Source: [Lactobacillus] timonensis
GTDB taxonomy: Bacteria > Bacillota > Bacilli > Lactobacillales > Lactobacillaceae
Length of the DNA stretch: 33,915 bases
Reading direction: 5' to 3'
NCBI RefSeq assembly: GCF_900240275.1
Contig: NZ_LT964761.1
Location: 509,600 to 543,514 of the forward strand
Of the stretch, positions 18,692-28,043 are shown piece after piece. A model generated the notes under the pieces. That model had not been told where the DNA came from and did not search any database. It saw only the letters and a list, made by a program, of their open reading frames with translations. A program made the position numbers and the translations under genes. Positions within the stretch are counted from its first letter, which is position 1. Every line of letters starts with the position of its first letter.

Positions 18692-19468
18692 ATGAGATTC
18701 ACCATTGATGACATCATTCTGATGTTTTTCTGCTACTCGTTCATCGGCTGGCTCTGGGAGACGATCTACTGTTCCCTGAGGCAACGAGCTCTCCAGTACC
18801 GGGGATTTTTAATCGGCCCCTACTGTCCCGTTTATGGCTTTGCTATTGTCACGATCATTCTCTGCACTGACAACTTTAATAATAACCTCATCGCCCTTTT
18901 CTTCATGGGCTGTTTGGTAGCCACCATTTTCGAGTTTTTTGCCAGCCTGTTGCTTGAAAAGGCGTTCCACATGAAACTCTGGGACTATTCCAACCACTGG
19001 GGTAACCTCCAGGGGCGGGTTGCGCCAGCCATCTCGCTTTTTTGGGGCGTTGGGACGGTTTTTCTCGTTCGTGACGTCCAACCTGCCGTCCTGAAGTTCA
19101 TTAACTTTGTCGAGTATGAGACAGCTCACTGGGCAGCCATCGCTGTCGCGCTAGTGATGAGCACTGACGCGGTCATGACCATCCTTGACACCGTTCAGTT
19201 TAAGGAACACGCTGCCATTTGGGAACAACGGATTCACGCAGAAAACCAACGGCTGCACGTTCAGCTGCTTGACGCAATGGATCAGCACCGGCTCAACCAG
19301 CACCAGCGGCGTGCCCGGTTGGTTCAGTTAGTCCACCCGACCTGGAACGAACGGCGGATGATGCATAACTATCCGACATTAAAAGTTAAAGAAGCACCGC
19401 ACTTATCAGCTCTTCACCACCAACTTCATCAGCACCAGCTGTATTCCAACAAAAAATCTCACAAGTAA
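18692..19468 (+). CDS. CmpB-type putative ABC-transporter membrane protein (PF06541 family)
   Basis: The N-terminal 160-170 residues have about five hydrophobic helices and the family signature FIGWLWETIYCSL...YRGFLIGPYCPVYGF. The C-terminal third is soluble, helical and rich in Gln, His and Arg, which suggests a coiled-coil or cytoplasmic tail. No ATP-binding partner is nearby, so the transporter label is by family name only. GGTGGAGGA, partly inside thrB, precedes ATG 18692. The 3-base gap to thrB indicates co-transcription with hom-thrB, a link to threonine metabolism that is unexplained. Confidence 0.8.
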   Translation: MRFTIDDIILMFFCYSFIGWLWETIYCSLRQRALQYRGFLIGPYCPVYGFAIVTIILCTDNFNNNLIALFFMGCLVATIFEFFASLLLEKAFHMKLWDYSNHWGNLQGRVAPAISLFWGVGTVFLVRDVQPAVLKFINFVEYETAHWAAIAVALVMSTDAVMTILDTVQFKEHAAIWEQRIHAENQRLHVQLLDAMDQHRLNQHQRRARLVQLVHPTWNERRMMHNYPTLKVKEAPHLSALHHQLHQHQLYSNKKSHK

Positions 19469-19547
19469 TGGTGTCAATTTACATTGACTTATTTATAGGT
19501 TGAAAACATACTGCCAGCCTTCTAGCAACCTCTTAGTTCATAATTGT

Positions 19548-19555
19548 GTTATAAT
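19548..19555 (+). promoter_or_regulatory. Extended -10 promoter of the reductase gene
   Basis: TATAAT at 19550-19555 is preceded by a TG-type extension, about 44 bases before the start codon. No clear -35 is visible. Confidence 0.5.
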
Positions 19556-19599
19556 TATTAATGCAACATGTGCAGATAAACTGGGAGGCCTTTATTATA

Positions 19600-20124
19600 A
19601 TGAAATTTTTGGTAATTACCGGAAGTGCCCATCAGCCAGGCGCTTCGACGCAGCTTGCTGAGCAACTGGCTAAGGGTGCCAAAGAAGCGGGAAATACCGT
19701 CGAGATGTTCGACGCTGGTCTCCACCCGGTTTCACCGCTCGCTTTCAACGCTGATAACCAACTCCTGCCCGGAGATGATCGTGTTGAAGGTTTACTGGAT
19801 AAGATGGTGAGCGCTGACATTTTGGCCTTCGCTACCCCTATGCACTACTTTGGGATGTCTGCTCAGCTTAAGGCCGTTGTCGACCACATGGCAGAACGTG
19901 ATGAAGAACTTCATGGCGACAAACAAGCAATTCTACTCGCAACGTCGCAAAATGATGACTTTGACCCGCTAAAATCCGAGTTTAAAGCAATCGTTGACCA
20001 CATGGGTTGGACTTACGCCGGCCAAGTGTTGGCAGCGAAAACCAGTACCGACCACTTGCGGTTTTATCCCCAGATGGCCTTTGAGCTGGGCAAAAGCTTT
20101 GACGCCTCCAGTACTTCCGCTTAA
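19600..20124 (+). CDS. NAD(P)H-dependent flavodoxin-fold oxidoreductase
   Basis: The 174-residue protein has the FMN phosphate-binding loop GSAHQPGASTQLA (from residue 8) and the second FMN segment ATPMHYFGMSAQLKAVVDH, typical of the NADPH-dependent FMN/quinone reductase group. The electron acceptor is unknown. The start is ATG 19600 (MKFLVITGS), with GGGAGG 11 bases upstream; an upstream in-frame ATG at 19561 lacks a ribosome site and lies inside the likely leader. It is probably monocistronic, as the trpXYZ promoter lies only 29 bases past its stop. Confidence 0.88.
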   Translation: MKFLVITGSAHQPGASTQLAEQLAKGAKEAGNTVEMFDAGLHPVSPLAFNADNQLLPGDDRVEGLLDKMVSADILAFATPMHYFGMSAQLKAVVDHMAERDEELHGDKQAILLATSQNDDFDPLKSEFKAIVDHMGWTYAGQVLAAKTSTDHLRFYPQMAFELGKSFDASSTSA

Positions 20125-20152: not shown

Positions 20153-20181
20153 TTGACAGTCGTTGGTCCTGCCGGTATACT
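20153..20181 (+). promoter_or_regulatory. Strong sigma-A promoter of the trpXYZ leader
   Basis: TTGACA (20153-20158), a 17-base spacer and TATACT (20176-20181). Predicted transcription starts near 20188, giving a leader of about 255 bases before trpX. Confidence 0.85.
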
Positions 20182-20212
20182 TACAGACAAATCAACGAAG
20201 GGAGTGTCAATC

Positions 20213-20269
20213 ATGAGCAAAAACTTTATCCAACAATTACAGATGATGCGTCGTTGGCAAAGCCAGTAG
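20213..20269 (+). CDS. Leader peptide of trpXYZ with a Trp codon near its end (putative attenuator peptide)
   Basis: An 18-codon frame, MSKNFIQQLQMMRRWQSQ, starts at ATG 20213, 8 bases after GGGAG, and ends at TAG 20267. A single Trp codon (20255-20257) is three codons before the last. It lies about 25 bases after the predicted transcription start and is followed at once by competing hairpins and a terminator in front of trpX. In known amino-acid attenuators, stalling at a scarce codon in such a peptide changes the downstream fold. Use of this peptide in Trp sensing is inferred; no homologue is known to me. Confidence 0.65.
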   Translation: MSKNFIQQLQMMRRWQSQ

Positions 20270-20420
20270 CTCGGGTTGACTCCGGTCGGAATCAGCCTGA
20301 CACAATTCGGGTTAATTCCGTGCTGGCATCCAATTAATACTTAGTGCCCGCATGTGAAGCAAGATCATTGCGGGCATCCTGAAGAGAAGGGGTCCGTGTA
20401 GCGGGCTCCTTTTTCTTTTT
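20254..20420 (+). promoter_or_regulatory. Putative transcription attenuator of trpXYZ
   Basis: Visible structure: (A) GGTTGACTCC (20274-20283) pairs with GGAATCAGCC (20288-20297), with one C/A mismatch. (B) The same middle segment CGGAATCAGCC (20287-20297) can instead pair with GGTTAATTCCG (20310-20320). The two left arms are a 13-base direct repeat with two differences. TTGG/GCCAG around the Trp codon (20254-20266) can pair with CTGGC/CCAA (20323-20333). (C) TGCCCGCA (20345-20352) pairs with TGCGGGCA (20369-20376). (D) Terminator AGGGGTCCG/CGGGCTCCT (20388-20410) plus a T tract. GCCCGC of hairpin C can alternatively pair with GCGGGC of the terminator. I find no T-box sequence (UGGNACCGCG-like). 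Confidence 0.6.
20388..20420 (+). terminator. Intrinsic terminator inside the trpXYZ leader
   Basis: A 9-base stem, AGGGGTCCG/CGGGCTCCT, with a TGTAG loop is followed by TTTTTCTTTTT. It ends 24 bases before the trpX start codon, where an attenuator terminator is expected. Confidence 0.8.
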
Positions 20421-20444
20421 GCTAACTACTGGGAGGAAATGTCA

Positions 20445-21434
20445 ATGAAAAGAATGTATACCCTCATCACCGTTTTATTTGTCTTCCTCGGTGTGGCCTT
20501 CTTTCGGGAAAACAACGGTGTGTCTCAAAGTAAGCACCCCACCGTCGGGATATTGCAATTAATGCACCACCCCTCGCTCGACCAAATTCATCACGGCTTT
20601 ATTGCTGGTTTGGCAGACGAAGGGTTTCATGAAGGAAAGAACCTAACAATCGACTACCAGAACGCGCAGGGTGATCAAAGTACCCTCAAGACGATGGCCA
20701 ATAAGCTAGTCAACGAGCACGACAACGCCATCTTTGCCATCACCACCCCGGCAGCCCAGTCGGTTGCCAACTCAACAACTAAGATACCGATCATCCTCGG
20801 GGCCGTAACCAATCCGCAGGGGGCTGGGCTGGTTAAAAATAACCACCACCCTGGCGGCAACATTACCGGGGTTTCCGACCAAGCACCGGTAGCTCAGCAA
20901 CTGGCGCTGGTCAAAGAGTTTCTTCCCCATGCCAAAAGCATCGGAATCATCTATACCTCCAGCGATAACTCCGCATCAACCGAACACGCCCTCTTTGTTA
21001 AGGAAGCCAAGCGGCAACACGTCAACCTGAAGTCGTACACCATTGCTAATAGCAACGACCTCAACCAGGTTTCCCAAACGGCGCTAAATAATAACGATGC
21101 CTTAATCGTCCCGACTGATAACACCATTGCCGGCGCAATGCAGACCCTAGTTAAAAACGCTAACGCTGTTAACAAGCCAATCTTCCCGGCAGTCGCCCAG
21201 ATGGTTAAACAAGGCGGGGTTGCCACCTACAGTATCAACCAGTACGACCTTGGTGTCCGTGGCGGCCGGATGACCGGTAAAATTTTGAAAGGGGAGAACC
21301 CCGCGAAGATGCCGATTGACTTTTCGCGGCACGGTGAACCAGTTTTGAACCTCAAACAAGCTCATAAGTTGGGTCTGACGGTACCAAAGCACTTTGAACA
21401 CGAAGCAGAAACGAAAGGGCAGGTGTTTAAATAA
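20445..21434 (+). CDS. trpX: Tryptophan-type ABC transporter substrate-binding protein TrpX
   Basis: Extracytoplasmic binding protein of the ABC_sub_bind/TrpX family, which captures tryptophan (or related aromatic amino acids) for TrpYZ. The 329-residue protein has an N-terminal hydrophobic segment (about 5-20). There is no lipobox Cys, so it may be held by an uncleaved signal anchor. Typical family segments are TVGILQLMHHPSLDQIHHGF, AITTPAAQSV, GAVTNPQGAGLV and NITGVSD. The start is ATG 20445, 8 bases after GGGAGG; the ATG at 20439 is too close. Its stop overlaps the trpY start (TAATG). Expression is probably controlled by the leader attenuator. Confidence 0.9.
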   Translation: MKRMYTLITVLFVFLGVAFFRENNGVSQSKHPTVGILQLMHHPSLDQIHHGFIAGLADEGFHEGKNLTIDYQNAQGDQSTLKTMANKLVNEHDNAIFAITTPAAQSVANSTTKIPIILGAVTNPQGAGLVKNNHHPGGNITGVSDQAPVAQQLALVKEFLPHAKSIGIIYTSSDNSASTEHALFVKEAKRQHVNLKSYTIANSNDLNQVSQTALNNNDALIVPTDNTIAGAMQTLVKNANAVNKPIFPAVAQMVKQGGVATYSINQYDLGVRGGRMTGKILKGENPAKMPIDFSRHGEPVLNLKQAHKLGLTVPKHFEHEAETKGQVFK

Positions 21435-22330
21435 TGAACTTAATTACTTCAGCAATCGGGCAGGGATTATTATGGGCCCTGCTGGGAATTGGTCTTTACC
21501 TGACCTTCCGCATTCTCAACTTTGCCGACATGACGGTTGAAGGAACCTTCCCCCTCGGGGCTGCCGTCGCGGTAACCGCCATCACTCACGGTATCTCGCC
21601 ACTAGGGGCAACGGTTCTCGCCGCCCTTGCCGGAATGGCTGCCGGGCTGATTACCGGTTTACTGTGCACCAAGGCGAAAATTGACAGCCTGCTGGCGGGA
21701 ATCTTAACCATGACCGCTGCTTATTCCGTCAACTTGCGGATCATGGGGAAATCCAACGTTTCCCTGCTCGGTAAGCAAACCCTGCTGACGCCGCTCCGGA
21801 ATCTTCCCCAATACTTTGACAGCGTTTTTCTGGGGCTGATCGTCATTCTGATTATTACGGCCGGTCTGATTTTCTTCCTCCAAACCGACTTTGGCCAGGC
21901 CTTTATCGCTACTGGTGACAACCCGGTCATGGCCAGGTCGCTCGGGATTAAAACCGACTCAATGGTCATCATTGGCCTAATGCTCTCCAACGCCCTGGTT
22001 GGCCTTTGCGGCGCTTTAATTGCGCAGAGCAACGGTTACGCCGACATTAACATGGGAATTGGGACGATCGTCATCGCCCTCGCCTCAATCATTATTGGGG
22101 AAGTGGCTTTCGGTGACCTTACCCTCAACCAGCGGTTAGTCGCCGTCACCCTCGGGAGTATCATCTACCGGCTGATCCTCTTAGCCGTCCTCCAGCTTGG
22201 TTTCTCCACCAACGACTTGAACCTGATTTCTTCAATTGTTCTGGCGCTATGCATGATGCTGCCACGACTAAACAACGTCCTGCACATCAAAGAACCATTC
22301 GTCAAGGGAGGTCTTAGTCATGACAAATAA
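21434..22330 (+). CDS. trpY: Tryptophan-type ABC transporter permease TrpY
   Basis: The 298-residue integral membrane protein has about 8-9 hydrophobic helices and belongs to the LivH/RbsC-like BPD_transp_2 permeases. It begins with the family's glutamine/glycine-rich first helix (SAIGQGLLWALLGIGLYLTFRILNFADMTVEG). It forms the channel for TrpX-delivered substrate. The start codon overlaps the trpX stop, and its last 11 bases overlap trpZ, so translation of all three genes is coupled. Confidence 0.9.
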   Translation: MNLITSAIGQGLLWALLGIGLYLTFRILNFADMTVEGTFPLGAAVAVTAITHGISPLGATVLAALAGMAAGLITGLLCTKAKIDSLLAGILTMTAAYSVNLRIMGKSNVSLLGKQTLLTPLRNLPQYFDSVFLGLIVILIITAGLIFFLQTDFGQAFIATGDNPVMARSLGIKTDSMVIIGLMLSNALVGLCGALIAQSNGYADINMGIGTIVIALASIIIGEVAFGDLTLNQRLVAVTLGSIIYRLILLAVLQLGFSTNDLNLISSIVLALCMMLPRLNNVLHIKEPFVKGGLSHDK

Positions 22331-23093
22331 TCGCGAACCAATGTTACAGCTAAAAGACGTTTCCACGGTGGTCAACGCGGGAACGCCCAACCAAACCACG
22401 ATCTTGAAGAAGATTAACCTGACGATCAACGATGGTGACTTCATCTCCATCATTGGGACCAACGGGGCTGGGAAGTCCACCCTCTTTAACGTGATTGCCG
22501 GCAGTTTGCCGGTTGCTAGTGGACAACTGTTTCACCAGGGTGTCGACATTACCACAATGAGCGTAGAACAGCGGACTAGTTTCCTCAGCCGCGTCTTCCA
22601 AGACCCCAAAATGGGGACGGCCCCGCGGATGACCGTGGCCGAAAATCTGCTGTTAGCGGCTAAGCGGGGCGAAAAACGTCACCTTATTCCGCGACACCTC
22701 AAACAGCGCCTGCCGGAACTCAAACAGCTCGCCGCCTCGATGAACAACGGGCTGGAACAGCGCCTTAACACCGCTACTGGCAACCTTTCCGGCGGTCAGC
22801 GACAGGCACTCAGTTTCCTGATGGCAACGATCAAACGACCAGATATCTTATTGCTGGACGAACACACCGCCGCCCTCGATCCCCATACCAGTCAGTCGCT
22901 CCTTCACGCCACCAACCAGCGGATTACCGAGGACCACTTAACGGCTCTGATGATTACCCACCGGATGGAGGACGCCCTGACCTATGGCAACCGGTTGATT
23001 GTTTTAAAGGCCGGTCAGATTGTGGCTGACTTTGCCGGTAAAGAAAAGCAACAATTGACCCTTGACCAGCTATATGACTTTTTTGAGGACTAA
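22320..23093 (+). CDS. trpZ: Tryptophan-type ABC transporter ATPase TrpZ
   Basis: The 257-residue ATP-binding protein powers TrpXY. Walker A is GTNGAGKS (46-53), the Q-loop is in VFQDPKMGT, the signature is LSGGQRQ (156-162), Walker B is ILLLDE (D180, E181), and the H-loop is in MITHRMED. The D-loop context DEHTAALD is typical of this family in place of DEPTAALD. GGGAGG in the trpY end serves as the ribosome site. The operon ends 1 base later in a strong terminator. Confidence 0.92.
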   Translation: MTNNREPMLQLKDVSTVVNAGTPNQTTILKKINLTINDGDFISIIGTNGAGKSTLFNVIAGSLPVASGQLFHQGVDITTMSVEQRTSFLSRVFQDPKMGTAPRMTVAENLLLAAKRGEKRHLIPRHLKQRLPELKQLAASMNNGLEQRLNTATGNLSGGQRQALSFLMATIKRPDILLLDEHTAALDPHTSQSLLHATNQRITEDHLTALMITHRMEDALTYGNRLIVLKAGQIVADFAGKEKQQLTLDQLYDFFED

Positions 23094-23691: not shown

Positions 23692-25407
23692 ATGAAAGTC
23701 GAACCCAAAATTATTGAGCAAGTTAAGTCTGTCTTAAAGCAATTTGGCACTAAATATCTTACGGAATCAGGCGAGTTGAAGCGTAGTAACGTCATTAATG
23801 ACCTCGATCAGTATGATCGTGAATTAATGGCTGCTCTCTTAGCCAATCCGCTCATTCATGATAATTACACCGAGATGATCGCCGGCACCGAAATCTTCAA
23901 GCTAAACAAGTTTATCGAGATGTTTGAATATAAGGATTTCTGGGAGGATAGCTTCACTAAATATACCGACAAAATCGGTCTAGCTAGCGGAGGCAAATTC
24001 ATCTCAGATTCGTCTGATGTCGTCCTCGATTTTCCTTATAAAGATACTGTCCTCAAAGCTGGCATGGATAAGGAAGACGCTGATCCCGAGGTTGGGGCTG
24101 ATGAACCATTCCTGAATGAAACATTAGCTCATGCGGAAATTAGTGAGCTCTTGGAACCAAAAGTTTTAATCAACGCCAAGCGCTATGATAAAGATGGTGA
24201 ACATGAGGCAAATAGTTTTGATGATCAAGATAACTTGATTATCAAGGGAAACAATCTTGTTGCATTACATAGCTTAAAAGAAAAATACTCCAGTAAAGTT
24301 AATTTAATTTATTTTGATGTACCTTTTAATACAAGTAACGACTTCCCATATAATGATAAATATAATAGATCAACGTGGCTTACTTTTCTTCAAAATAGGT
24401 TAAGAATCGCAAAAAACTTGTTAACAAATACTGGTAGCATTTTCGTACATATTGATTGGCATGAGGATGCTTACTTAAGAATTTTATTGGACGAAATTTT
24501 TGGGAAAGATAATCTTATTAATGAAATTATTTGGCACTATGGTTCCGGTGGTAGTTATAAAAATTCATTTGCTAAGAAGCATGATACTATTTTCTGGTAT
24601 TCTAAAACATCAAATTATAAGTACTTTCCTGATAATAAAATGGTTGGCGAAAAAAGAGGAACTAAAAAGCGAAATAATATGAAAAGGAATGTCGATGAGG
24701 ATGGGAGGGTTTACTATTCAATTAAATCAGCAGGTAAAATATATAAGTATTATGAAAACGATTTAATTACACCAGATGATGTCTGGAATATATCGATCTT
24801 GCAACAAAAAGACCCAGAAAGGATGGGATTTAACTCTCAAAAGCCTGAAAGACTATTAGCACGGATTATAGGGGCCACAACGAAAGAAAATGACTTAGTT
24901 CTAGATTCCTTCATGGGATCCGCAACAACACAAGCTGTTGCAATGAAAATGAAGCGACGTTTTATTGGTATTGAGCAAATGAATTATATTAATACCATTT
25001 CGGTTCCTCGCCTACAAAAGGTTATAAAGGGTAGCCAAGAAGGAATTTCAAAAAAAGTAAACTGGCAAGGCGGTGGTTCCTTCGTCTACGCTGAATTGAT
25101 GGAGAAGAATCAGGGATACTTGAAAGATCTACAGAAAGCCACGACTTTCGATGAATTAGACGCTATTTTCCAACGTATGAAAGCCGGTGCCGACTTTGAT
25201 TTCCGGGTTGACCTGGCTAAATTTGAAGATGATCCTGATCGGAGAAAACTATCCTTTGAGGGCCAAAAGAAATTACTCATTAAGCTGCTGGACAAAAACC
25301 AGCTTTATTACAATGAAGCCAACATTGATGATGCTGATGTCCGCGATCTGATTTCCAATAGTGATTATCAATTCAATAAGAGTTTCTACGGGAAGGAGTC
25401 AGAATAA
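23692..25407 (+). CDS. mod: Type III restriction-modification system methyltransferase (Mod)
   Basis: The 571-residue beta-class adenine-N6 methyltransferase also acts as the DNA-recognition subunit for Res. The order is an N-terminal helical region, the catalytic motif IV context NLIYFDVPFNT (D209-F212), a target-recognition region, then the AdoMet motif I LDSFMGSATT (404-413) and FIGIE. The catalytic tetrad reads DVPF, not the common DPPY/DPPF. Bases from about 24240 to 25050 are much more AT-rich than the rest (13/60 GC at 24301-24360 and 17/60 at 24601-24660, against 23/60 at 23881-23940 and 26/60 at 25201-25260), pointing to an exchanged specificity segment. The stop overlaps the res start. 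Confidence 0.93.
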   Translation: MKVEPKIIEQVKSVLKQFGTKYLTESGELKRSNVINDLDQYDRELMAALLANPLIHDNYTEMIAGTEIFKLNKFIEMFEYKDFWEDSFTKYTDKIGLASGGKFISDSSDVVLDFPYKDTVLKAGMDKEDADPEVGADEPFLNETLAHAEISELLEPKVLINAKRYDKDGEHEANSFDDQDNLIIKGNNLVALHSLKEKYSSKVNLIYFDVPFNTSNDFPYNDKYNRSTWLTFLQNRLRIAKNLLTNTGSIFVHIDWHEDAYLRILLDEIFGKDNLINEIIWHYGSGGSYKNSFAKKHDTIFWYSKTSNYKYFPDNKMVGEKRGTKKRNNMKRNVDEDGRVYYSIKSAGKIYKYYENDLITPDDVWNISILQQKDPERMGFNSQKPERLLARIIGATTKENDLVLDSFMGSATTQAVAMKMKRRFIGIEQMNYINTISVPRLQKVIKGSQEGISKKVNWQGGGSFVYAELMEKNQGYLKDLQKATTFDELDAIFQRMKAGADFDFRVDLAKFEDDPDRRKLSFEGQKKLLIKLLDKNQLYYNEANIDDADVRDLISNSDYQFNKSFYGKESE

Positions 25408-28043
25408 TGGCTCGCAAGAAATCGATCCCGCAAGAAAAAATCGACCTCAAACTATTAAATTGGCTAAATGATACGTCGTTTTTTAGCCAAGATGAAGGTA
25501 TGCTACGGTTACCGCTGTATATCAGTCAAAACCTCAAGCACAAACTCCGTGACTACCAGTTTTCTGCCATCCATAACCTAGACGCCGTTAAAAGACGGTT
25601 TGGTAATGATAGCAACTATAATCAGCTCATGTTTTACATGGCCACTGGGTCGGGAAAGACTGATATCATGGCTGCAATTATCTTGTACATGTATCATGTT
25701 TGGGGGTATCGATGTTTCTTATTTACTACAAACACCACAGCCGTTGTCAGCAAAACCATCGATAATCTGACCAACAATGCTTCTCCCAAGTACCTATACC
25801 AAGATCCGTTAACCATCGACGGTCAACGGGTAACGATTAAGCAAACCAATGATTTTCCAGTAACTTTGGAACAGAATACGATCTATATCAAGTTTTCCGG
25901 TATTCAACAGTTATCAAACGACTTCAATGTACCACGAGAGAATGGTATTACACGAGATTCCCTCAGTCGCCATAAACTGGTGATTTTAGCCGATGAAGCA
26001 CACCACTTTAACGTTGGTACACGGAGTAAGAAAGCTAATGCTGAAAGCAAGAGCTGGGAATCACTACTCGATGAAATTCGGGGACTAAATCCACAAAACC
26101 AGCAATTGGAATTTACGGCAACAATCGACCTACATAACCCTGATATCTATCACAAATATCAGAACAAGATAATCGCCCAGTATGATCTCAGCCGCTTCAT
26201 TAACGATGGGTATTCCAAGCAAGTTTACCGATTGCAGGCCAACAATAGTGACAAGGATAAAATGCTCAACGCTGTTTTATTATCACAATATCGGAAGCGA
26301 ATTGCTCAGAACATGGGTATTCCTGACTTTAAGCCGGTTATTTTGTTTAAATCAAACACAATTGCCCAATCTAAGTCAGTTAATGAACAATTCCTCACGA
26401 TGATTGACAGCTTATCTGCTGAGTCTTTGCAAGAATTTATTCAGTCTCAAAACCAATCTACCCAGAGTGAAGCCCTCAGTATGGCCTATGATTACTGGCT
26501 TAAGCAGGGCTTTGGTGAAACAGTGGCGGAGTTAAAGCATGACTTCCGTGAACTGACGACAGTCAACGCCAACGACCCAGGATCTAAGGGACTGCTTTAT
26601 CATTCTAACGTCGCCACCAAGTTAAATAATCTGGAAAACCCAGATAATCCAGTTCGCTCAGTCTTCGCCGTTGCCAAGTTAAGTGAAGGTTGGGACGTTC
26701 TGAACCTATACGACATTGTCCGAATTGGCGAAAAAAATATTAAGCCAAAAGACACTAATGCCGAAGCCCAGTTAATTGGCCGTGGTGCCCGCTATAATCC
26801 TTTTATTTACCAGGGGAAGAAGTCTTATGTTCGCCGCTTTGACGACCGGAAACCTGAAATTCAGCTTCTGGAGCGGCTTTACTACCACACCATTAACAAT
26901 CCACAGTACCTTGAAAACCTGCGGAAGTCCCTAGATGCCATTGATTTACCGGTTAATGAAGATACTAAGTTTAAGCTTTATACTGCCAACGTCAAAAAGT
27001 CATTCAAACGCACTGCTACATATCGTCACGGTAATATCTATTACAACAAGGTAGAAACCGTACCAGCATCGCATTACGATTGTATTCAAAAATACGGCTT
27101 CGATCCCTCCACGACCGAGCCGATTGATTTGATTAATACAACGTCAGAACGACAAATTAATACTGGCGCTGATCGGAACGATCAAGCTTCGACAGAATTA
27201 GTCAACGTGGCTTCATTTATTAACCCATCCGATAGAGCCCTGATTAATACTGCTATCTCATTCAATGATTTCTTCAGATTTGATAAGCTGAAAAAGCAAT
27301 GTCCAACACTAACTAGTGTTCGAGAACTATTGACGAGTGATAAGTGGCTGGGACATGCAGTTGTGCAAGCCCGGGTTGCCGTCGGAGCAAAAATCACTCC
27401 ACAGTTACGCTTACGGGCAGTTGAGAAATATCTAACACGGGTCAACAATGCCCTCGTTCATAATTTCCAACGTTCAAAAGGGACTGATGAATTCCAACCA
27501 GTAGCCGTTCACGAAGTCATTAAAGATTACACTAAGCGGGTTCGTGATGCTTTTAACGATCCTCACACGGCACAAATTGGTCCAAACCCGATGAAAGGCA
27601 AAGACTGGTTCGTTTACGATTACGCAATTGTCGACATTTTAGAGAAGAACTTTATTGACAAAATCGGTGCAGAAATTCCACACATCAAAGAAAAATTCAA
27701 GAACGCCTACTTATTACGAATTGACGAACGCAATACTGACTTTAAACTTCATGATTTTGGTGAAGAGGTTTATCGTTATGAAGGCTACATGCCCGACTTT
27801 GTCCTTTACCTCGACAACAAAGACTACATTTACCAAATTTATCTGGAACCGAAAGGGCAGCAGCTTCTCGAAAAAGATAAATGGAAAGAAGAACTACTCA
27901 GTCGGATCAATCCAGAAAATGTTGTTATCCTCGGCGAAACTGACAACGTAAAACTGTACGGGGTAAAATTCTACGTTGAAGATGATAAAGGACATCAAGA
28001 CCTTCATCATATGATGGACGATTTGCGCAAAAAGATTGATTAA
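25407..28043 (+). CDS. res: Type III restriction enzyme helicase/endonuclease (Res)
   Basis: The 878-residue partner of Mod is an SF2 translocase with an endonuclease domain. Motif I is ATGSGKT (79-85), motif II DEAH (196-199) and motif III FTATI; later motifs include AKLSEGWDV and QLIGRGARY. The C-terminal nuclease site fits PD-(D/E)xK: D797 in GYMPDFVLYL and E814-P-K816 in LEPKG. All core motifs are intact, so restriction is likely active if Mod is. Translation is coupled to mod through TAATG. A short terminator follows. Confidence 0.95.
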   Translation: MARKKSIPQEKIDLKLLNWLNDTSFFSQDEGMLRLPLYISQNLKHKLRDYQFSAIHNLDAVKRRFGNDSNYNQLMFYMATGSGKTDIMAAIILYMYHVWGYRCFLFTTNTTAVVSKTIDNLTNNASPKYLYQDPLTIDGQRVTIKQTNDFPVTLEQNTIYIKFSGIQQLSNDFNVPRENGITRDSLSRHKLVILADEAHHFNVGTRSKKANAESKSWESLLDEIRGLNPQNQQLEFTATIDLHNPDIYHKYQNKIIAQYDLSRFINDGYSKQVYRLQANNSDKDKMLNAVLLSQYRKRIAQNMGIPDFKPVILFKSNTIAQSKSVNEQFLTMIDSLSAESLQEFIQSQNQSTQSEALSMAYDYWLKQGFGETVAELKHDFRELTTVNANDPGSKGLLYHSNVATKLNNLENPDNPVRSVFAVAKLSEGWDVLNLYDIVRIGEKNIKPKDTNAEAQLIGRGARYNPFIYQGKKSYVRRFDDRKPEIQLLERLYYHTINNPQYLENLRKSLDAIDLPVNEDTKFKLYTANVKKSFKRTATYRHGNIYYNKVETVPASHYDCIQKYGFDPSTTEPIDLINTTSERQINTGADRNDQASTELVNVASFINPSDRALINTAISFNDFFRFDKLKKQCPTLTSVRELLTSDKWLGHAVVQARVAVGAKITPQLRLRAVEKYLTRVNNALVHNFQRSKGTDEFQPVAVHEVIKDYTKRVRDAFNDPHTAQIGPNPMKGKDWFVYDYAIVDILEKNFIDKIGAEIPHIKEKFKNAYLLRIDERNTDFKLHDFGEEVYRYEGYMPDFVLYLDNKDYIYQIYLEPKGQQLLEKDKWKEELLSRINPENVVILGETDNVKLYGVKFYVEDDKGHQDLHHMMDDLRKKID

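Follow-up and report, generated by a model that had tools for sequence, protein, structure and literature searches.

Our analysis argues that the trpXYZ operon of the 33,915-nucleotide stretch of DNA studied here (the window) is preceded by a ribosome-mediated (leader-peptide) transcription attenuator reading charged tRNA-Trp, a reading to which we give a probability of roughly 87%. The leader combines a short open reading frame (ORF), a set of pairing arms, covariation of most of the helices and codons that track the downstream gene, and the sequence evidence favors codon-dependent ribosome stalling over a riboswitch, a T-box, or an arrest peptide. The 3' part of the leader corresponds, by its sequence, to the Rfam family RF04312 (trpB motif); the RNA is therefore not unknown. 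More broadly, the trpB motif is probably a modular attenuator of Lactobacillales and not a riboswitch, in which one scaffold carries natural swaps of the stall codon (Trp, Tyr, Phe, Arg), the leader peptide would predict the substrate of the transporter and, in Limosilactobacillus, a two-step domino would operate, the block of the left arm of a first stem (T1L) releasing its right arm (T1R) onto a second terminator.

The operon lies on the plus strand and starts with trpX (20439 to 21434, likely start at 20445), whose product is a tryptophan ABC transporter substrate-binding protein according to NF041285 (442 bits, for a cut-off of 390) and is 91% identical to TrpX of Candidatus Limosilactobacillus merdipullorum. 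The two following genes on this strand, a permease (BPD_transp_2; 21434 to 22330) and an ATPase (ABC_tran; 22320 to 23093), were recognized by Pfam matches and named trpY and trpZ by position. Judged by its neighbors, the host genome is a Limosilactobacillus, and a TrpX match is present in 44 of the 50 genomes examined from that genus; tryptophan synthase beta gave no match in the own genome, a point in favor of the attenuator reading. Upstream of the leader (18692 to 20124) lie genes for a membrane protein of the ABC_trans_CmpB family and for a protein of the FMN reductase family, and the operon is followed (23692 to 28043) by type III restriction-modification genes (N6_N4_Mtase, ResIII).

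The leader region (20153 to 20445, all features on the plus strand) begins with the strong promoter announced by the initial annotation, a sigma-70-type TTGACA-17-TATACT with 11 of 12 consensus matches at the position given there (20153 to 20181). A Shine-Dalgarno (SD) motif read from the sequence (20200 to 20206) precedes the leader ORF MSKNFIQQLQMMRRWQSQ, 18 codons closed by a TAG stop (20213 to 20269), whose sole Trp codon, UGG at 20255 to 20257, is the proposed stall codon. The end of the ORF forms arm P1L (20262 to 20268), a partner of arm D. Downstream, and supported by covariation, are arm A (20270 to 20279), the proposed partner of B when the ribosome is on UGG, arm B (20288 to 20300), the partner common to A and C, and arm C (20306 to 20319), which pairs with B and whose 3' part doubles as antiterminator; A and C are direct repeats, each able to pair with B. 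Arm D (20321 to 20327), placed by covariation and pairing counts, is the partner of P1L or of the T1 left arm. The antiterminator C/D:T1L (20316 to 20357) pairs 20316-20328 with 20345-20357, corresponding to columns 68-80/115-127 of the alignment A1 described below, and 11 of its 13 pairs form in the window by a hand count on alignment columns. Stem T1 (20345 to 20376), supported by covariation, pairs 20345-20352 with 20369-20376 and has no T-rich tail in the window; a coupling helix, T1R:T2L (20370 to 20397), joins 20370-20375 to 20392-20397 according to duplex energies. The terminator T2 with its U tract (20384 to 20414, from a pattern scan) and the SD motif of trpX (20431 to 20438, read from the sequence) complete the layout. 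Promoter and terminator pattern counts were not above chance (1 and 2 sites versus shuffle means of 0.9 and 1.0); the layout stands above chance because of the stability of its fold (-85.2 kcal/mol, z = -4.65, an energy that none of 200 dinucleotide shuffles reached) and because of a conserved, covarying arrangement across an alignment of 51 leaders.

The annotated 18-codon frame with one Trp codon near its end is present and recurs in the genus: a leader ORF of 14 to 18 codons ending in WQS plus 1 to 3 residues was found at 62 of 66 genus-level loci, a count of that very pattern since the ORF scan required WQS. These loci lie upstream of trpX or its remnants and include duplicates, with 58 unique leaders. 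The start codon is ATG in 61 of the 62 ORFs, an SD word is present in 60 and TTGAC occurs at most 90 nt upstream in 57. Most of the genus leaders have one Trp codon, three having two (L020, L027, and L032), and TGGCAAAGC is invariant in 62/62, which exceeds what P1L pairing requires. The four loci devoid of a leader ORF comprise L051, where trpX stands behind a permease-like gene and the leader is absent, L054, where a TrpX paralog directly follows an apparent rlmH (by reading) and the leader is also absent, and the degenerate L063 and L066.

Several related elements were observed at other places in the genus. A scar keeps T1 and T2 while the leader ORF and the transporter are gone (L207, G006:C2:174165-176800), in a genome with no TrpX match, and a second trpX copy (L241, G038:C1) has an intact leader, a fragmented gene and, by reading, a reverse-transcriptase-like frame downstream. 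On its minus strand (G000:C1:456899-457003, L295/L272), the own genome has a second leader of the Trp type, MKTRYEQKRWQAWYTFDRI, which is followed by a frame of just 92 residues for a membrane protein; a nearly identical leader (L415, G024) precedes a 385-residue membrane protein with a 2HCT match under the Pfam cut-off and, by reading, an M20-type peptidase. Another Trp-type leader, MTFNDLQFNTAWQSWH (L205, G016:C6:22819-25500), lies before an operon other than trpX, which encodes an aldo/keto reductase and two proteins with no Pfam match.

Alignment A1 holds 51 leaders, 49 of them distinct (L061 was left out). Helices C/D:T1L, B:C, A:B, and T1 are paired in 90.6%, 89.8%, 94.7%, and 99.0% of its cells, respectively, and the covariation score of each was reached by 0 of 500 shuffles, which, like the T1R:T2L permutations reported below, ignore relatedness; sliding the registers by 1 to 3 columns destroys the score in all four. 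Compensatory columns of C/D:T1L are 74-121 (GC 33, AU 15) and 68-127 (AU 43, UA 5). The number of doubly changed pairs was matched by 118, 20, 34, and 16 of 500 shuffles, in the same order of helices, and the count of further pair types in T1 was no better than in shuffles (494/500). Two left arms competing for one right arm had been proposed from the direct repeat, and both A:B and B:C indeed covary. The pairing of the Trp-codon region with a downstream segment was retained in part: P1L:D pairs in 99.4% of cells, but its covariation, with a score of 0.138 versus 0.122 in shuffles (0/500) and one doubly changed pair of 2 cells that 83 of 500 shuffles equal, supports the helix weakly. Columns 76-119, inside the antiterminator, carry a C-C, C-U, U-C, or U-U mismatch in 51/51 sequences, as if the antiterminator had been deliberately weakened. 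Since B can pair with A or C, and D with P1L or T1L, the helices amount to a series of either-or choices, and covariation of C/D:T1L and of T1 supports a mutually exclusive antiterminator and terminator. The comparison across relatives that the initial annotation had recommended hence shows covarying arms A/B/C/D and T1 side together with a conserved Trp codon.

The terminator announced just before trpX exists as T2, but the annotated layout was incomplete, for stem T1 and the cascade from T1 to T2 were missing from it. A T-rich tail follows T1 in 47 of 49 leaders, the exceptions being the window and L001, and T2 lies downstream of T1 in 49/49, partly by construction as the script demanded a T-rich tail. 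Because the window and L001 have no U tract behind T1, T2 is the sole possible terminator there, and the T1R:T2L helix would link it to the antiterminator. Cognate T1R:T2L duplexes average -10.4 kcal/mol versus -8.76 kcal/mol when permuted (0/20000 permutations, 45 unique pairs), and the permutation fraction is 0.0002 upon restriction to 19 unique T1R. The attenuator model needs T1, whose left arm is the antiterminator target, plus a cascade to the terminator.

The ORF is predicted to be translatable, having both a start codon and an SD motif, and we infer the stalling, the order of events, and the response to Trp as follows. When Trp is scarce, the ribosome would stall with UGG in its A site, masking P1L but leaving A available; A would pair with B, the freed C and D would pair with the T1 left arm, and the freed T1 right arm would pair with the T2 left arm, so that both stems are prevented and transcription proceeds into trpXYZ. 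When Trp is ample, the ribosome would reach the stop codon and mask A, B would pair with C and then P1L with D, and T1 and T2 would form and end transcription. P1L:D would also form when the leader is not translated, termination being the default.

Folding with a masked ribosome was computed for 49 leaders, the degenerate copies L064 and L065 having been dropped beforehand, on transcripts ending before T1R and with an assumed footprint reaching 12 nt beyond the first nucleotide of the A site. The antiterminator probability averaged 0.84 for a ribosome whose A site holds UGG, 0.43 for one at the stop codon, and 0.13 with no ribosome; a shift of the A site by one codon gave 0.82 (before UGG) and 0.77 (after it), and positions two to four codons before it gave 0.50 to 0.66, which makes the UGG peak moderate. 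Masking past the stop gave 0.60 to 0.99, though no ribosome is expected there. At UGG, at the stop, and with no ribosome, mean A:B pairing was 0.82, 0, and 0.50, and mean B:C pairing 0.17, 0.92, and 0.43, respectively. The window's own copy discriminates poorly between ribosome positions in this folding, its antiterminator probability being 0.98 on UGG, 0.91 with the ribosome at the stop, and 0.90 with nothing masked, which is a weakness of the model. The switch was not reproduced with longer transcripts at equilibrium, T1 being favored at every ribosome position (mean probability of at least 0.86); therefore, the switch would have to be kinetic.

A covariance model built from A1, R1, which includes the Trp-codon region, matches 45 of the 50 genus genomes at E up to 0.1 (one being the scar L207) and, at the same limit and with chance matches included, 306 of 396 family genomes, in 32 of 40 genera; at E up to 0.001 it matches 48 of 295 genomes from the order. 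Outside the family, its best match (L210, E = 4.8e-5) is by reading a Trp leader with a TrpX-like gene downstream. Among 40 family regions that were read, 36 precede TrpX, and all 36 of these leaders have a Trp codon, a proportion not independent of the search as the regions were picked by R1, which holds Trp codons. Their peptides end in WQSR, WQSQ, WQSW, WWRR, WPSR, WQNR, or WQGQ or are several residues longer. The weak R1 matches L198, L200 to L202, L204, L206, L211, and L212 were read as terminators, a tRNA, or coding sequence and rejected. In 27 genomes with no listed R1 match (G006, with the scar, added), trpX was absent from 12, and of 15 above-cut-off TrpX loci in genomes with no listed match, 10 have a Trp leader by reading and 5 show none by the rule applied.

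RF04312 (SRC-39-1; Narunsky et al. 2024, PMC11109978) is presented in the available part of that paper as a strong riboswitch candidate of >900 representatives, mostly upstream of an uncharacterized ABC transporter homologous to amino-acid transporters. By position and helices it is the same RNA as the leader, with the B:C hairpin, an antiterminator located in the right shoulder of that hairpin and terminator T1, and it shares the gene neighborhood, an amino-acid ABC transporter and trpB. The helices are homologous and likewise placed before trpX, but the model, which spans arm B to just after T1, leaves out the leader ORF, P1L, arm A, and T2, and it does not report the window's own copy, which stays below the gathering score. 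Other leaders score 72.6 bits (L053) and 60.1 bits (L030), or fall under the gathering score of 59 (L119, L107, and L043). Twelve of 50 genomes of the genus have matches over the gathering score, with sites up to 94 bits, and the genus matches coincide with R1 leaders (e.g., G002:C43 and G049:C62). Across the order, 178 of 295 genomes have an RF04312 match at E up to 0.01, 52 of them exceeding the cut-off; across the phylum, the model matches 23 of 398 genomes, a single one of which exceeds it. The only other Rfam family on the window leader, RF00489 on T2 (22.6 bits for a gathering score of 50), was taken as chance. The titles and abstract openings among the matches listed from the open-license PMC literature do not describe the leader ORF.

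As the RF04312 model lacks the ORF, its sites provide an independent test of the Trp leader. Among 126 hand-chosen sites (30 best loci, 16 sites, and 80 from 150 places listed), an ORF defined by a fixed rule contains Trp in 118, compared to 6 of the 126 when the opposite strand is read and 131 among 2520 shuffled sequences. Of the eight misses (L305, L348, L393, L355, L307, L308b, L314, and L361), L305 and L393 were reassigned to Trp by hand, another ORF with an SD motif lying at the same place, and so was L348 (G602:C55), by reading, through an in-frame ATT start behind an SD motif; L307, L308b, L314, and L361 are of the Tyr/Phe type, and L355 was discarded, reading as a terminator located behind the end of a coding sequence. 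The corrected set hence comprises 121 Trp sites, 4 Tyr/Phe sites, and 1 that is no site. Behind the 121 Trp-type sites are 110 TrpX-like and 5 TrpB-like genes, one TrpB having been checked (TIGR00263, 617 bits); the other 6 (L241, L244, L270, L295, L305, and L367) were not assigned by script.

Which amino acid the leader codons specify (Trp, Tyr/Phe, or Arg) varies with the gene behind the leader, as expected of a ribosome that reads codons. At a fixed place, Trp codons precede trpX or trpB, and Tyr/Phe codons precede paralogs and aroE. A Tyr/Phe leader stands before aroE and DAHP synthase at L308 and, by reading, before aroE at L294 (match E of 0.007). Others precede TrpX paralogs at RF04312 sites (L307, L361, and L314) and at L231 to L235, L238, and L239, that is, 7 of 10 below-cut-off TrpX loci, the remaining three being by coordinates later genes of tandem clusters. 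Their peptides include YYFSYFR, FFFDFFG, and YYYGYYG. Outside the order, a Phe-rich leader precedes a sodium symporter (L271). In a quick tree of 165 substrate-binding proteins, which loci lacking a TrpX-like ORF do not enter, a single branch (SH-aLRT 100) splits 155 Trp from 10 Tyr/Phe proteins, where the Trp label means RF04312 sites not marked otherwise, minus L241, L295, L308b, and L355, and where L361 was flagged as a long branch with odd composition. The conserved ORF, Trp codon, and arms, together with codons changing with the gene, thus lend support to the attenuator proposed at the outset.

Arg-type leaders occur in one genus, at six sites in 4 of 7 genomes (L116, L117, L118, L120, L150, and L163). 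They end in NIRLRSR or NIRLRSQ, CTG CGA replacing TGG CAA, and precede SBP_bac_3/permease transporters or an OppA-like protein; none of the downstream genes tested gave an NCBIfam transporter equivalog over the cut-off. At L163, P1L and its partner were by reading changed together (AAGUCG/CGACUU). Arginine is the signal that we would propose for these leaders. A macrolide-type arrest at Arg-Leu-Arg instead of arginine sensing, an explanation concerning them only, could account for the RLR of their peptides, listed as a motif of antibiotic-resistance leader peptides in the available part of PMC8632094, and for the mixed folding of the six leaders, in which the T1 left arm of L118 and L163 is paired upstream with no ribosome (0.93 and 0.97). 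It is nevertheless doubtful, for the genes tested resemble amino-acid or oligopeptide transporters and not resistance genes, and the two Arg codons flank the place of UGG by one codon on each side, within the peak of antiterminator probability.

TnaC is an arrest peptide sensing free tryptophan in the ribosome tunnel. A similar peptide before trpX would agree with the conservation of WQS in the genus, which the search pattern places 1 to 3 residues before the C-terminus; we consider it very unlikely, as conserved arrest residues were not found across the family and the order, where the C-termini vary (WQNWRR, YYFSYFR, and FFFDFFG among them). Moreover, CAA and AGC show no synonymous change in the genus, so that the constraint looks to be at the RNA level, a point qualified by the family member L108, which has AGT instead of AGC.

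The invariance of TGGCAAAGC, the presence of both a terminator and an antiterminator, and the publication of RF04312 as a strong candidate would also suit an RNA that itself binds an amino acid or a related ligand. A riboswitch nevertheless appears very unlikely, given a short ORF, located where the model begins on its 5' side, that holds Trp or Tyr/Phe codons in the proportions given above and leader codons that change with the gene; its authors, in the part of the paper available, left a classic attenuator possible (PMC11109978). Next to no weight can be given to a divergent T-box binding uncharged tRNA-Trp independently of translation, even if the Streptococcus suis trpXYZ carries a Trp T-box (PMC9382623, available part): as the initial annotation had stated, the window has no T-box at the gathering score (RF00230), the 22 matches of this model in the own genome, 5 over the cut-off, include none within the window, and the leader, with its SD motif and ORF, is about 250 nt long.

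The codon-reading attenuator that we favor has known counterparts. In the E. coli trp attenuator, the ribosome at Trp codons chooses between antiterminator and terminator, and at the stop favors termination. The window-type leader would share the decision by a ribosome at a Trp codon and termination with the ribosome at the stop; unlike it, it has mostly one Trp codon and places downstream of arms A/B/C/D the serial stems T1 and T2, which T1R:T2L couples, and it drives an importer. The initial annotation took ribosome-stalling control of a Trp importer in a lactobacillus to be notable, Trp genes of Gram-positive bacteria being usually under T-box or TRAP control; leader-peptide attenuation has a Firmicutes precedent in the His leader of bacilli (PMC2965389), and further Gram-positive examples are a Leu-rich attenuator of S. 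aureus (PMC5794164) and the ilvB upstream ORF of Corynebacterium (PMC10272879; also in PMC11109978). In common with the window-type leader, they have regulatory codons in a short ORF that lies upstream of a terminator/antiterminator pair; they respond to other amino acids. The S. suis T-box has in common with the leader the operon and, as proposed here, the on-when-Trp-scarce logic, but it senses tRNA directly and is about 460 nt long (PMC9382623, available part). Altogether, the sequence tests suggest a known kind of regulator, the ribosome-mediated attenuator, on an RNA scaffold whose mechanism had been open.

If true, this reading would close the case of an orphan riboswitch candidate by naming as its sensor the ribosome on an ORF omitted from the model, and the search for a ligand would become a codon test. 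The natural series of codon swaps would provide a measure of how stall codon and RNA scaffold cooperate, and the tandem-terminator cascade, if real, would tighten the weak signal of a single codon. Leader peptides could, moreover, predict the substrates of otherwise unassigned transporters, the clade of TrpX paralogs with Tyr/Phe leaders being predicted to carry Tyr or Phe.
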